Source: Aquificota bacterium (lineage in GTDB: Bacteria; Aquificota; Aquificia; Aquificales; Hydrogenothermaceae). Taken from it: DNA of 32,290 nt. Shown here in pieces: positions 24,333 to 32,197 of this stretch. The stretch lies in assembly GCA_013153235.1 (NCBI GenBank), contig JAADEU010000112.1, forward strand, positions 1 to 32,290, written 5' to 3'. Numbering within the stretch: position 1 is the first letter of the stretch; every line of letters begins with the position of its first letter. Under the pieces are notes generated by a model that was given only the letters and a program-made list of their open reading frames with translations, ran no database searches and had not been told where the DNA came from. Position numbers and translations under genes: made by a program.

Positions 24333-24355
24333 GGGAGGTATCTACTCCCCTTTTT
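24331..24355 (+). terminator. Rho-independent terminator after parB
   Basis: AGGGGAG (24331-24337), loop GTATCTA and CTCCCCT (24345-24351) are followed by TTTT. The first stem base lies in the parB TAG. The right arm overlaps the last codons of the convergent nrdR gene, whose own stop (24342-24344) is in the loop. Confidence 0.75.
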
Positions 24356-24806
24356 CCTTTTCCTCTATCTCCCTCAGGGCCTTTTCAAAATCCTTAACAT
24401 CCTGAAACTCATTATACACAGACTTGAACCTCAGATAGGCCACCTTATCAATCTTTTTAAGCCTTTCCTGTACCAGGTCTCCTATCTCTGTACTTTCAAC
24501 AACCAGTTTTCCTTCCTCAAGAAGGTACTTCTCTATTTCATCTGCAATTTCTGCCATCTGCTTTTCGGATACAGGCCTGTTTTTTGAGGCAAGTCTTATA
24601 CCCCTGATGATTTTCTCTTTATTAAACGGTTCAGTCGTTCCGTTTTTCTTTTTGACTACAATTTTTTCCTCTTCGTATCTTTCGTATGTGGTAAACCTGA
24701 AACCACAGTCCAGACATTCCCTTCTTCTTCTTATAACAGTACCGTCCTTTGACTGTCTGGTATCAACAACCTTATCGTTAAGCGAGCCACAGTTAGGGCA
24801 TTTCAT
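24342..24806 (-). CDS. nrdR: Transcriptional repressor NrdR
   Basis: The 154-residue protein has the NrdR layout. An N-terminal zinc ribbon carries two CxxC pairs (CPNCGS, and CLDCGF about 25 residues later). An ATP-cone domain follows (VVKKNGTTEPFNKEKIIRGI) and then a C-terminal helical region (VAYLRFKSVYNEFQDVKDF). It represses ribonucleotide reductase genes according to the ATP/dATP ratio. Its ATG overlaps the stop of the SnoaL-like gene by 4 bases. No ribonucleotide reductase gene is in this window, so its targets lie elsewhere. Its 3' end falls in the parB terminator hairpin. All diagnostic motifs are present. Confidence 0.96.
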   Translation of the reverse strand: MKCPNCGSLNDKVVDTRQSKDGTVIRRRRECLDCGFRFTTYERYEEEKIVVKKKNGTTEPFNKEKIIRGIRLASKNRPVSEKQMAEIADEIEKYLLEEGKLVVESTEIGDLVQERLKKIDKVAYLRFKSVYNEFQDVKDFEKALREIEEKEKGE

Positions 24807-26487: not shown

Positions 26488-26517
26488 AACAGCCTCACAA
26501 TTCAATTTTTTTGAATA

Positions 26518-26526
26518 ATTATACCA
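26518..26526 (-). promoter_or_regulatory. Extended -10 promoter for hemL
   Basis: The minus strand reads TGG-TATAAT, an extended -10 without a clear -35. Transcription would begin near 26511. An inverted repeat, ATTCAA-TTTTT-TTGAAT (26500-26516), covers that start point and could be an operator or a small leader hairpin. Confidence 0.5.
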
Positions 26527-26553
26527 GAGATATACCTAGAATACCTGTTAATC

Positions 26554-26582
26554 TTGAATGGGGAGAGAGATTTGATTATATT
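26554..26582 (+). promoter_or_regulatory. Promoter for the Roadblock gene
   Basis: TTGAAT (26554-26559) and TATATT (26577-26582) lie 17 bp apart. The expected start near 26589 leaves a leader of about 30 bases and lies inside the over-long track ORF. That supports the downstream start at 26619. Confidence 0.5.
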
Positions 26583-26618
26583 AATAACAGGATATTAACG
26601 GAAAGGGGGAGAGACACC

Positions 26619-26963
26619 ATGCCGCTCTCAGAACACACAGCCACAGAGATTCTCAAAGAGTCAAATGCCTACGCCATGTTTATACATGATTTACACGGTA
26701 ATATAGAGGCATCCTTTTTTGATGCCTCAAGGCTTGGAAAAAACAGCTCTGCAGGACTTGGGGTTATTCTTTCTATTGCAGAAGAGCTTGTGAAGAGGCT
26801 TGACCTTGGACGGCATCAGTACACAGTTCTGTGCTGTTCGGAGGGACACCTTTTTATAACTTCGATAGGTGGGAAACTCCTGTCTGTTTTTTCTTCCAAT
26901 AGTATTGAACCGGAAAGAATTATGGACAGGTTGATTTCTGCAGTTGAGAGGAATATTCAGTAG
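26619..26963 (+). CDS. Roadblock/LC7-domain protein
   Basis: The track ORF begins at a TTG at 26511, but the ATG at 26619 follows a purine-rich GGGGGAG and gives a 114-residue protein. Its pattern fits a single Roadblock/LC7 domain of about 95 residues. NAYAMFIHDLHGNIEASFF forms the first strand pair. A long central helix (SAGLGVILSIAEELVKRL) is followed by YTVLCCSEGHLFITSIGG and LLSVFSS. Bacterial Roadblock proteins such as MglB control small Ras-like GTPases. No MglA-type GTPase gene is in this window, so the partner is unknown. The short convergent overlap with the acyltransferase (7 bases) and the lack of a signal peptide are consistent with a small cytoplasmic regulator. The fold call is moderately secure. 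Confidence 0.65.
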   Translation: MPLSEHTATEILKESNAYAMFIHDLHGNIEASFFDASRLGKNSSAGLGVILSIAEELVKRLDLGRHQYTVLCCSEGHLFITSIGGKLLSVFSSNSIEPERIMDRLISAVERNIQ

Positions 26964-28272: not shown

Positions 28273-29721
28273 TCACTTCATATAGATTAGTATGAAAATA
28301 GTTATTATAACCGAGCCAATAATATTCATAAAGAAACCAACCCTGACCATTCTGCTGATAGGAACATGCCTGCTTCCGTAGATAATTGCATTGGGAGGGG
28401 TGGCTATAGGGAGCATAAATGCAAAGCTGGCAGCTATTATGATTCCAAACACAGGATAAAAAAGGTCTATGTTCAGCTCTTTGAGAATTCCAATCAATAT
28501 AGGTGCAAATGTGATAACTGTTGCTGTGTTGGAGCTTATTTCTGTTAGGAAAATCATTGCAACAATGAGTACAAAGATAAACAGTACAATCATCTCAGGG
28601 GATATTATCCCGGCCACTTTTTTGCCTATATACCCTGCAAGACCTGTTTTGATGATAAGTTTTCCCAGGGCTATACCTCCTCCAAACAGGAGAATTGTGT
28701 CCCAGTCAAGTTCCTTCAGGTCCTTCCCTGTCAGTGTTCCCTCGCCTTTCTTTGCAGGAAGTAAAAACAGCAAAATGGCAGCAATCAGGGCAACAATAGC
28801 CTCGGGAATGTGGTTTTTCAGGGCTTTGTACAGGGCCTGATTCCCCAGAATATTTGCAAGACCTGGAAGTATCCACAGGAATGCTGCCAGACCGAAAACA
28901 AACATGGTATTCCTTTCCCCGGGCGATACACGGGGAAGTGATTTCTTTTCCTGTCTTATAAGCTGTTTTATCTTTTCCTTTTCAAATGAAAAGTTCCTGA
29001 TGTGGAACCTGATGTACAGGAGCAGGGCTACGTAGGAGGTAAAGGTTATCGGTGCAGCAAGGAGAAACCATTTCAGGAAATCAACATCATAACCTTCTTC
29101 CTTTAAAAAGCCAGCTCCAATAAGGTTTGTTGGTGTTCCTATAAGTGTTGTTGCCCCGCCTATAGAGGCGGAATAGGCAACGGCAAGGAGGGCAAATACG
29201 GCAAATCTGCCTGTATCACTGATTTTTTTATTTCTGAACATCTGGATTATTCCAAGGACCAGTGGAAGGAGCATGGCTGTTGTTGCAGTGTTACTGACCC
29301 ACATGGAAAGGAGGAATGCGATAATGGAAAATCCTGCAATCAGTCTGATAGGACTCTGGAGGAAAAAATCCAGGGACAGCAGGTTCAGTGCAAATCTCCT
29401 GTCCAGACCGTGTTTTGTCATTGCCTGTGCAATCAGGAAACTTCCTAAAAAAAGGAGGATGACAGGATGTCCCAGACTCAAAAATGCTTCTTTAACGCTA
29501 ACCACACCCAGAACTACAGCGATGGTAACACCAAGAAGGGCTGTCATGGACAGTGGTATTACCTCTGTAAGCCAGAACACAAGGCAGAAGCCCATTATGG
29601 CAAATACTATATGGGCTTCCCTTGAGAGGTCCATCGGGGTGATATAGATTACCGCCGCAAGTAAAGGAGCCAGAACAAGACCTATCTCCCTTCTGTAGTG
29701 CTCAAGCCGTGATAAACTCAT
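28273..29721 (-). CDS. DASS/SLC13-family anion transporter
   Basis: The 482-residue polytopic protein has about 11-12 hydrophobic segments. It carries both halves of the DASS signature: SNTATTAMLLP in the first half and SSNTATVITFAP in the second. TTLIGTPTNLIGAG and ATPPNAIIYGS supply the paired (S/T)NT-P helical hairpins that bind anion and sodium. The family imports di- and tricarboxylates, sulfate or phosphate, usually with sodium. Substrate specificity cannot be assigned by eye. Dicarboxylate uptake would be notable in an autotroph. The ATG overlaps the hom stop as ATGA. The protein is complete. Confidence 0.88.
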   Translation of the reverse strand: MSLSRLEHYRREIGLVLAPLLAAVIYITPMDLSREAHIVFAIMGFCLVFWLTEVIPLSMTALLGVTIAVVLGVVSVKEAFLSLGHPVILLFLGSFLIAQAMTKHGLDRRFALNLLSLDFFLQSPIRLIAGFSIIAFLLSMWVSNTATTAMLLPLVLGIIQMFRNKKISDTGRFAVFALLAVAYSASIGGATTLIGTPTNLIGAGFLKEEGYDVDFLKWFLLAAPITFTSYVALLLYIRFHIRNFSFEKEKIKQLIRQEKKSLPRVSPGERNTMFVFGLAAFLWILPGLANILGNQALYKALKNHIPEAIVALIAAILLFLLPAKKGEGTLTGKDLKELDWDTILLFGGGIALGKLIIKTGLAGYIGKKVAGIISPEMIVLFIFVLIVAMIFLTEISSNTATVITFAPILIGILKELNIDLFYPVFGIIIAASFAFMLPIATPPNAIIYGSRHVPISRMVRVGFFMNIIGSVIITIFILIYMK

Positions 29722-31049
29722 TGTTCCTCATCTTCAACTCTTATGAGAACAGTCTTCCTGACGGTAATCTTTTCTTCTTCTATTTCCTTTATTGCCTTCT
29801 GTATATTATTTTCTGATGCTGTGTGGGTAAGTATAACAAGTGGAACCACCTTTTCGTCGGTAATCCCTGCAAAAGAAACAACCTTCTCTTTCTGTATTAC
29901 CGCAGCTATGCTAATGTTATATCTGGCAAATACGGCGGCTACCTTGGCCAGTATACCTGTAACATCAGGAACGGTAAATCTCAGATAGTACCTTGTGTAA
30001 AAATCACTGACCCTGGTAAGGGAAAGCTGTCTGTGTTGCCAGTTCATTGATGTGATTTCAATCTCCCTGCCAACGCCCAGGGCTATGCTCTTTGCTATAT
30101 CAACTATATCGCTGACGACTGCACTGGCCGTTGGGAGACTTCCTGCCCCTTTTCCGTAGAACATTGTTTCCCCCACAGAATCGCCCTCAACCATAACAGC
30201 ATTGAACACCCCATCTACCTTTGAAAGGGGATGGTCTGATGGGAGGAATGTTGGATGAACCCTCACCTCCACTTCACCGTTGTGTCCTTTGGCAATAGCC
30301 AGAAGTTTCAGGGTATAACCCAGTTCTCTTCCAAGGTCTATATCAATACTGTCTATATTTTCAATACCTTCAACATACACCCCGGAAAAATCAATAAAAC
30401 CGCCAAAGGAGAGGGATGAGAGTATCGCAATCTTGTGGGCAGCATCTGTACCATTTATATCAAGGGTAGGGTCTGCCTCGGCATAGCCAAGCTCCTGTGC
30501 TTCCCTGAGAACATCCTGAAAAGACCTGCCCTCTTTGAGCATCTGGGTAAGGATATAGTTTGTTGTACCGTTTAAAATGCCGTAAATTTTCTGGATATCG
30601 TTTGCAACAAGACCTTCCCTCAGGGCTCTGATAATGGGAATTCCTCCAGCAACAGCAGCCTCAAAGCCTACCCTTATGCCCTTTTCTTCTGCCAGGGAAA
30701 ATACCTCCTTCCCCTTCTCAGCAAGGAGGGCTTTATTGGCTGTAACAAAATGTTTGCCTTTTTCTGCCGTTTTTTTAAATAATTCCAGTGGGAAATCTAT
30801 TCCCCCTGTCAGTTCAACGATGATATCTATCTCCCTGTCATCAAGCAGTTCCTCAAGTGAGCTGGCTTTTTTATCCTCAGGGAGGGGATAGGAAAACTGT
30901 TTATCCCAGTTTCTGGTGTAAACCTTTTTCAGATTTATCTGTACACCGCTTTTTTTTGTAAGGAGTTCTTTCTTTTCCTCCAGTATCTGTGCAACACCAT
31001 TTCCAACAACACCGTATCCTACTATCCCAACATTAACAGTCTTCAACAA
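29718..31049 (-). CDS. hom: Homoserine dehydrogenase with C-terminal ACT domain
   Basis: This enzyme reduces aspartate semialdehyde to homoserine, on the path to threonine and methionine. The N-terminal Rossmann NAD(P) site is GIVGYGVVGNGVA. The catalytic core has TANKALLAEKG, a GGIPIIRALREGL block, and GILNGTTNYILTQM followed by GYAEADPTLDINGTDAAHK. A C-terminal ACT domain (about residues 360-435, FTVPDVTGILAKVAAVFARY) should allow threonine feedback. The 443-residue length is that of the monofunctional ACT form without an aspartokinase fusion. It lies 8 bases after the dcd-like gene and overlaps the transporter gene by 4 bases. The motif set is complete. Confidence 0.96.
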   Translation of the reverse strand: MLKTVNVGIVGYGVVGNGVAQILEEKKELLTKKSGVQINLKKVYTRNWDKQFSYPLPEDKKASSLEELLDDREIDIIVELTGGIDFPLELFKKTAEKGKHFVTANKALLAEKGKEVFSLAEEKGIRVGFEAAVAGGIPIIRALREGLVANDIQKIYGILNGTTNYILTQMLKEGRSFQDVLREAQELGYAEADPTLDINGTDAAHKIAILSSLSFGGFIDFSGVYVEGIENIDSIDIDLGRELGYTLKLLAIAKGHNGEVEVRVHPTFLPSDHPLSKVDGVFNAVMVEGDSVGETMFYGKGAGSLPTASAVVSDIVDIAKSIALGVGREIEITSMNWQHRQLSLTRVSDFYTRYYLRFTVPDVTGILAKVAAVFARYNISIAAVIQKEKVVSFAGITDEKVVPLVILTHTASENNIQKAIKEIEEEKITVRKTVLIRVEDEEQ

Positions 31050-31057
31050 CTGCCTCC

Positions 31058-31531
31058 TTACTCTGTTTTTGTCAGAAAAATCTGTGCAACAGGCATCTGG
31101 GCAAACAGCCTTACAGGATAATCATTTGTGTTGTAAAGACAGAAGGTGATGTTTCCTTCAAATCCATGCTCCAGCCATCCGGCATTCACCAACTGTAATC
31201 CCATCCTCGCAAGACGAAACTTAGGCTGGAGAAAAGGGGCAATATTCTCAGGAAGTCTTATATACTCCATGGATTCAACAAGGAAAAACCTTGACGGTTC
31301 GATAACTATACCCCTGTCAGATATGTAGTCCTTTTCCAGAATATTAAGGTAGGGGTTCTTAGGGTCAAGAATCTGAAGCTCAGGCTCAAGCTCCCTGGGA
31401 TACCTGTAGAATCTGTCTGATGTCCTGAGGTCTATAGAGGAGGGCTGCAGCTGCAGCTCCTCATCAAAAGGGTCTATCTCAATTGAACCGATTTTCAACA
31501 GCTCTTTAATCTGTTTTTGGTTTAAAAGCAT
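31058..31531 (-). CDS. dCTP deaminase/dUTPase-fold protein lacking the canonical catalytic Glu
   Basis: The 157 residues align by eye with Dcd. PSSIDLRTSDRF matches the N-terminal motif, LARMGLQLV matches the SSLARLGL region, and GFEGNITFCLYNTNDYPVRLFAQMPVAQIFL matches GFxGxxTLExxN...RIGQLxF. At the catalytic Glu of ITLE the sequence has Cys (Cys132 in track numbering). The preceding SS pair is replaced by FR; the Arg in LAR remains. The protein is also shorter than most Dcd enzymes and lacks a C-terminal lid. It may be inactive, bind nucleotides as a regulator, or catalyse something else. The ATG at 31531 (GGAG 5 bases upstream) is better than the track's GTG at 31534. It lies 9 bases after elbB and 8 before hom. 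Confidence 0.75.
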   Translation of the reverse strand: MLLNQKQIKELLKIGSIEIDPFDEELQLQPSSIDLRTSDRFYRYPRELEPELQILDPKNPYLNILEKDYISDRGIVIEPSRFFLVESMEYIRLPENIAPFLQPKFRLARMGLQLVNAGWLEHGFEGNITFCLYNTNDYPVRLFAQMPVAQIFLTKTE

Positions 31532-31540
31532 CACATCTCC

Positions 31541-32197
31541 TTACTGTCTTGCAAGCCTGAGGACTTCTTTAACCAGCTTTTCTATACCCTCAGCCACGTC
31601 CTTTATTGTTTTTCCTTCCATATAGGCAGGTGTTGAAACAATTTTGTGTTCCTCATCAACAAGTGCCTCAGAAACAGGGCATACAAGGTGCTGCTGACCC
31701 ATAGCCTCAATTGCCTTTGCAACCTGCTCATCACTTCCGATGGTCAGTTTTGCCTTTGCTTCCCTGAGTGCTGCTGCGACGATTACAGGTGATATACACA
31801 CAGCTCCGATAGGCTTTCCCTTCTGGAACATCTCAACCAGAAGTCTTTTCACCTCAGGGATAACATCTGCATCGGCACCTTTCTCAAGGAAGTTTGAGAA
31901 GTTTTTGGCAACGCCGTATCCACCTGGCATAATAAGAGCATCTATATCATCGGCTGAGACCTCGTTGATATCCTTGATATCTCCCCTTGCTATTCTGGCA
32001 GCTTCCACAAGAACATTCCTTGTTTCATTCATCTTTTCACCGTTAAGGTGGTTAATCACCTCTTTCTGTGGAATGTTAGGTGCCATACAGACTATCTCAA
32101 CCCCTTCCCTGTCCAGGAAGTAAAGGGTAAGTGTAGCCTCATGTATTTCAGCACCATCGAACACACCACATCCTGCAAGTAAAACACCTACTTTCAT
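31541..32197 (-). CDS. elbB: ElbB-type glyoxalase-like DJ-1/PfpI-family protein
   Basis: The 218 residues match ElbB (YhbL), a class I glutamine-amidotransferase-like protein of the DJ-1 superfamily. (M)KVGVLLAGCGVFDGAEIHEA is the family start. LIMPGGYGVAKNFSNFLEKG follows. The nucleophilic-elbow Cys is in GAVCISPVIVAAAL. The E. coli member is implicated in isoprenoid synthesis and has weak glyoxalase activity; its real role is unresolved. The gene heads the minus-strand run with the dcd-like gene and hom. An SD-like GGGGGTGG precedes the ATG. It is divergent from the partial gene at the right edge, sharing 77 bases of AT-rich spacer. Confidence 0.92.
   Translation of the reverse strand: MKVGVLLAGCGVFDGAEIHEATLTLYFLDREGVEIVCMAPNIPQKEVINHLNGEKMNETRNVLVEAARIARGDIKDINEVSADDIDALIMPGGYGVAKNFSNFLEKGADADVIPEVKRLLVEMFQKGKPIGAVCISPVIVAAALREAKAKLTIGSDEQVAKAIEAMGQQHLVCPVSEALVDEEHKIVSTPAYMEGKTIKDVAEGIEKLVKEVLRLARQ

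Follow-up and report, generated by a model that had tools for sequence, protein, structure and literature searches.

The window (the whole stretch of DNA analysed, 32,290 nucleotides) encodes a short paralogue of dCTP deaminase (Dcd), which we named DcdS. The closest named relatives of its genome are Persephonella MAGs (L033-L035; Persephonella belongs to the Hydrogenothermaceae, Aquificota); the genome is 71.5% complete, and statements of absence for it are weak. The dcdS gene is preceded by a ribosome-binding site (AAGGAGATGTGATG) and lies between elbB and hom on the same strand, with tight junctions at which Shine-Dalgarno sequences overlap the stop of the preceding gene, in agreement with the first-pass annotation, which had placed the three genes in one operon. 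The features discussed below are:

31541..32197, minus strand: elbB (DJ-1/PfpI family), the upstream operon neighbour of dcdS
31058..31534, minus strand: dcdS, a probable Dcd-fold pseudoenzyme of 157 amino acids; ATG at 31531, stop at 31058-31060, GTG at 31534 as an alternative start
31334..31369, minus strand: residues L55-E66 (LDPKNPYLNILE), the most conserved segment of DcdS, where conservation exceeds that in the canonical Dcds encoded alongside it
31205..31222, minus strand: K104-F-R-L-A-R109, replacing the RSSLGR phosphate-binding motif; K104 and R106 are invariant across the paralogue clade
31169..31171, minus strand: Glu121, replacing the motif-3 Asp (in the clade, Glu in 13, Gly in 4 and Asp in 2)
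31139..31141, minus strand: codon of Cys131, which occupies the catalytic Glu site (Glu127 in the canonical Dcd that this genome encodes)
29718..31049, minus strand: hom (homoserine dehydrogenase with an ACT domain), downstream, 8 bp past the dcdS stop

The gene order common to most genomes was elbB-dcdS-hom-anion symporter-Nudix-acyltransferase-hemL-(unnamed)-nrdR; in genus g4 dcdS preceded hom with no elbB, and in genus g5 it followed elbB with no hom. Because elbB and hom directly adjoined each other without dcdS in genomes G001-G004 and G020 (L104, which is the G020 locus, and also L106, L111, L112 and L115), and because the pattern of dcdS gain and loss required four changes when mapped on a hom tree, we conclude that dcdS is dispensable and was repeatedly lost, repeated gain being less likely. 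The sequence TAAGGAG occurs at both dcdS junctions in the window, a short direct repeat that could permit clean deletion of the gene. Inside the cluster, an ORF of 150 amino acids without an NCBIfam match lies on the opposite strand (26511-26963, plus strand), and its site is taken by unrelated or variable small ORFs in other genomes. Seven genes downstream of dcdS and on the same strand is the gene for the ribonucleotide-reductase repressor NrdR (24342-24806, minus strand; TIGR00244, 160.5 bits), whose presence in the cluster is possibly a dNTP-related link and possibly chance. A search with PADLOC gave no match that would link the locus to a defence system.

The 157-aa protein matched the Pfam DCD family (PF22769, 8e-35) and scored 112.1 bits against the NCBIfam dCTP_deam model TIGR02274, above the curated cut-off of 92.8. 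An AlphaFold2 model (mean pLDDT 85.1) gave as its best match in the PDB the M. tuberculosis Dcd-Dut 2qlp (TM 0.87, E 1e-14) and also matched the Dcd structures of Bacillus halodurans, E. coli and M. jannaschii, with TM values to the query of 0.81-0.89 when the M. tuberculosis enzyme is included. The predicted jelly-roll subunit is thus similar to those of solved Dcd and dUTPase structures, and the model and the sequence together indicate that DcdS keeps this subunit fold; by extension, it would form a trimer.

Although the fold appears to be kept, the active site is not. The Dcd and dUTPase families have established roles for the general-base Glu, the phosphate-binding motif, the motif-3 Asp, which aligns with the catalytic Asp of dUTPases, and the lid at the C terminus. 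The motif region of DcdS reads QPKFRLARMGLQLVNAGWLEHGFEGNITFCLYN, and DcdS aligns without gaps through this motif with both B. halodurans Dcd (4xjc) and its own genome's canonical enzyme; therefore Cys131 coincides exactly with the catalytic Glu, as had been noticed from the window alone. The possibility that the alignment is shifted and a different Glu fills the site was rejected on the same ground, with E121 at the motif-3 Asp position and E125 corresponding to a canonical Glu. The change of the two Ser residues of RSSLxR, which had likewise been noticed, was also seen (F105-R106), and the loss proved wider than first described, extending to the motif-3 Asp and the tail: DcdS ends at the last strand, whereas the canonical enzyme (L002, 180 aa) continues into the tail GKYQGQRGTTASRIYMDKD.

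To place these changes in the phylum, we compared 47 canonical Aquificota Dcds with the 19 intact DcdS orthologues, which come from six genera. All 47 canonical proteins had the R, S, S, E, D and E residues and the C-terminal tail intact. In all 19 DcdS proteins R100 was replaced by K, S101 by F, L or Y, S102 by R, E111 by V, I or L and E127 by C, T or I, so that the RSSLxR position read K-[FLY]-R-[LIM]-x-[RKQ], and D117 was replaced by E or G in 17 and kept in the other two. The tail that closes over the nucleotide (GKYxxQ.G; Y160/K163/Y164/Q167/G169) was present in 47 of 47 canonical proteins and in none of the 19 DcdS proteins, and among the latter no new invariant Asp or His replacing the catalytic set was found in the pocket. 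Because the Glu is absent from all 19 intact orthologues in the six genera, its loss is not a sequencing accident, and an error of sequencing or assembly was rejected as its source.

Loss of the Glu alone is no proof of inactivity, because the archaeal protein P45 (9ln0), which has Met at that position (TLMLYN), and a Pyrococcus furiosus protein annotated as a dCTP deaminase are dUTPases, the latter efficient and with no deaminase activity (PMC5122711). DcdS resembles the P45-type proteins (9ln0 and Thermococcus pacificus 8y1w) in being a short, misannotated, Glu-less Dcd fold, and it could on this precedent still be a dUTPase. However, P45 retains RSSLAR, the Asp (WVDPGW), an alignment to the canonical tail and dUTPase activity, whereas DcdS has KFRLAR, Glu at the Asp position (Asp in 2 of 19 copies) and no tail; moreover, the motif-3 Asp is itself required in human dUTPase, where its change to Asn leaves no measurable activity (PMC4827122). 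We consider a remaining dUTPase activity highly improbable. We favour the explanation that DcdS is a pseudoenzyme retained for a non-catalytic binding or regulatory role, which we judge to be probable.

This explanation does not leave the cell without the reaction, since catalysis in DcdS genomes is covered by a canonical Dcd. A second, canonical gene, which the first-pass annotation had suggested looking for, was found in the same genome (L002, on contig C118 of G000) with all catalytic and nucleotide-binding features, and the idea that DcdS is the only deaminase of the genome was rejected accordingly. A canonical Dcd was found in every good-quality genome holding DcdS, both genes are present in complete genomes (G019 and G028, for example), and the DcdS query found a match in 22 of the 23 good-quality Hydrogenothermaceae genomes. 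Searches with PF00692 matched only Dcd or DcdS in these genomes and gave no stand-alone dUTPase, so that the supply of dUMP depends entirely on Dcd. The family's canonical enzyme is closest in sequence to the bifunctional B. halodurans protein, and is by this resemblance likely bifunctional (Dcd-Dut).

A family-level search identified DcdS in 20 genomes of the Hydrogenothermaceae (Persephonella and relatives), distributed by genus as g1 13 of 14, g2 1 of 6, g3 2 of 3, g4 2 of 3, g5 1 of 1 and g7 1 of 1, with none in genera g6, g8, g9 and g10. In a profile search of 136 Aquificota genomes, DcdS proteins scored 231-290 bits and canonical Dcds at most 151 bits, and no DcdS was found outside the Hydrogenothermaceae; nor were further copies found among 391 relatives in 261 genera at E <= 1e-40. 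The one copy that is not intact (G029; L015/L071) has an in-frame TGA; its neighbours and the genome's canonical dcd are fragmented as well, and the damage may reflect assembly errors rather than real decay.

The DcdS paralogues were monophyletic with support of 100/100. When viral, Bacillus and Mycobacterium Dcds were added to the tree, DcdS joined the canonical Dcds of its own family (98/82) on a long stem (1.27 changes per site), and DcdS is most likely a duplicate of the Hydrogenothermaceae's own Dcd that arose within that lineage. The duplication could also predate the divergence of the Aquificota families, because a constrained tree grouping all canonical Aquificota Dcds together was not rejected (AU p 0.28). 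Recent acquisition from a virus was rejected: viral Dcd matches (L082-L088, phage records) did not exceed 37% identity, the ones compared at residue level (L082-L085 and L088) had the RSS and the Glu intact and grouped outside the Aquificota proteins, and a scan of viral contigs for the segment DPKNPYLN gave one chance match only, in an unrelated ORF (L185). Elsewhere in the phylum, genome G084 has two full-length canonical Dcds (contigs C40 and C47; L180 and L181), a separate duplication in which both copies kept Glu, RSS and tail.

Where dS was usable (0.2-1.3), dN/dS between dcdS pairs was mostly 0.03-0.14; dS was saturated between distant pairs, and values were taken only from closer ones, the 0.19 for the distant pair G000/G017 (dS 1.30) being unreliable through saturation. 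Purifying selection on the fold, which the first-pass annotation had expected, was thus found together with changed catalytic positions, the combination expected of a dUTPase-superfamily pseudoenzyme. DcdS could instead be a decaying relic without function, as its evolutionary rate is 2-5 times that of Dcd (amino-acid identity between G000 and G016 was 51% for dcdS versus 88% for canonical dcd), it is repeatedly absent and one copy is damaged. However, the gene is intact in 19 genomes of six genera, dN/dS is well below 1, 21 columns are invariant across the clade (including K104 and R106, which replace the R and an S of RSS), and the one damaged copy lies among fragmented neighbours. A functionless relic therefore seems a very doubtful account of the gene.

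Constraint within the protein has moved off the active site to the segment at residues 55-66. Across 15 genomes with both genes, mean pairwise identity was 0.57 for dcdS and 0.80 for dcd, and near the active site it was 0.53-0.64 for dcdS versus 0.91-1.00 for dcd. Residues 55-66 formed the sole stretch clearly more conserved in dcdS than in dcd, with a difference in identity (dcdS minus dcd, window of 12) of +0.24 against a mean of -0.23; the permutation p-value of 0.0002 is a guide only, as it takes columns as independent in sequences that are related. The same residues have the lowest confidence of the AlphaFold model (pLDDT 59-69). The sequence after the catalytic motif, described at first as well conserved, turned out to be the reverse: few parts of DcdS are less conserved than residues 134-157 (mean pairwise identity 0.34-0.57, against 0.70-0.99 in the canonical Dcds of these genomes).

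These patterns bear on two further explanations, both raised when the window was first read, the first of them simply as a new activity. One is a new enzyme activity that uses Cys131 in the old pocket. Cys occupies the Glu position in 17 of the 19 intact orthologues, with the invariant K104 and R106 close in sequence, but Thr (G016) and Ile (G005) take its place in two intact orthologues of the same operon context, and the pocket has no other new invariant Asp or His. What is strict in the clade is the loss of the Glu (19 of 19) and not the Cys itself, and we regard a Cys-based activity as quite unlikely. The other is a nucleotide sensor, which would bind dCTP, dUTP or dTTP but not turn them over and would pass a signal to a partner or to the operon. 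A sensor would accord with the retained fold, with the invariant K104, R106 and N116-x-G118 in the pocket region and with the gene for NrdR, a dNTP-responsive repressor, in the same conserved cluster. Against it, DcdS has lost the RSS, the entire lid and, in most copies, the motif-3 Asp; relaxation relative to canonical Dcd is strongest in the active-site block, positions invariant in the canonical enzyme included; and nrdR is several genes away and unlinked in some genomes. The expectation of probable ligand binding, taken as binding of a nucleotide, was thus not supported, and we consider a sensor unlikely.

The loss of all known catalytic features, the conservation across the clade, the purifying selection and the shift of constraint are observed; from them we infer a binding role, and with it a partner, for DcdS as a retained pseudoenzyme. 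A plausible course is that Dcd duplicated, most likely within the Hydrogenothermaceae, and that one copy moved into the elbB-hom operon and came to lack the catalytic Glu, the RSS that binds the triphosphate, the lid at the C terminus and, in most cases, the motif-3 Asp. The product would have kept its subunit fold and may serve as a non-catalytic binding or regulatory protein, with a putative partner contact probably formed by the segment around residues 55-66 and perhaps aided by the invariant K104 and R106. The first candidate partner, given the common origin and subunit geometry, would be the canonical Dcd-Dut.

A specific form of this explanation is that DcdS subunits assemble with those of the canonical Dcd-Dut into mixed trimers and thereby reduce or adjust the activity of that enzyme. 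Adjacent subunits jointly form the active sites in the dUTPase superfamily, so that a dead subunit lacking the tail would poison such sites or make them less sensitive. Mixed trimers are made conceivable by the same fold and origin, with 35-46% identity between DcdS and its own canonical enzyme, by the presence of the latter in each good-quality DcdS genome, by the dependence of dUMP supply on Dcd in a family with no separate dUTPase, and by the communication between subunits of DCD trimers, whose dTTP regulation is cooperative (PMC4827122). However, the dcd and dcdS genes are unlinked, and their co-occurrence is uninformative, as canonical Dcd is nearly universal. We hold mixed trimers to be a possibility that is tentative at best. 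With similar reserve, one may suppose more broadly that in these thermophiles without a separate dUTPase a duplicated Dcd-Dut became a dedicated regulatory subunit whose surface moved from the nucleotide pocket to residues 55-66, and which would control dUMP/dTTP supply through mixed trimers or else a process linked to the operon.

Among known systems, the Dcd enzymes 4xjc (B. halodurans), 2qlp/2qxx (M. tuberculosis) and 1ogh (M. jannaschii) are the best structural matches to DcdS and align with it over the full length, and the canonical Dcd of the family is of the same type by sequence; they differ from DcdS in just the features that it has lost. Binding of the Stl repressor by staphylococcal phage dUTPases is a precedent for regulation by protein contact through a trimeric dUTPase fold, but these proteins, unlike what is proposed for DcdS, remain enzymes (PMC5593958). 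An inactive dUTPase-related protein such as that of bovine immunodeficiency virus is, as proposed for DcdS, a superfamily pseudoenzyme whose gene matters without activity, although it is viral and derived from dUTPase, whereas DcdS is encoded in a bacterial operon and derived from Dcd (PMC4261571). Pseudoenzymes of the dUTPase superfamily are therefore already known, and DcdS adds a variant whose novelty we judged on the open literature and family databases. In the open literature (subscription papers lie outside this scope) we found no paper pairing dCTP deaminase with pseudoenzymes or Aquificota, and a search there for Persephonella with dCTP returned only a review of HD domains.

Because DcdS scores above the cut-off of TIGR02274, it will be misannotated: this equivalog model names it an enzyme, and metabolic reconstructions then count a dead copy. 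If the pseudoenzyme explanation is true, DcdS would be a clear case on a bacterial chromosome of an enzyme of the dUTPase superfamily turned pseudoenzyme, with the ancestral enzyme available for comparison within one cell, and it could reveal how the trimeric fold is reused in regulation.
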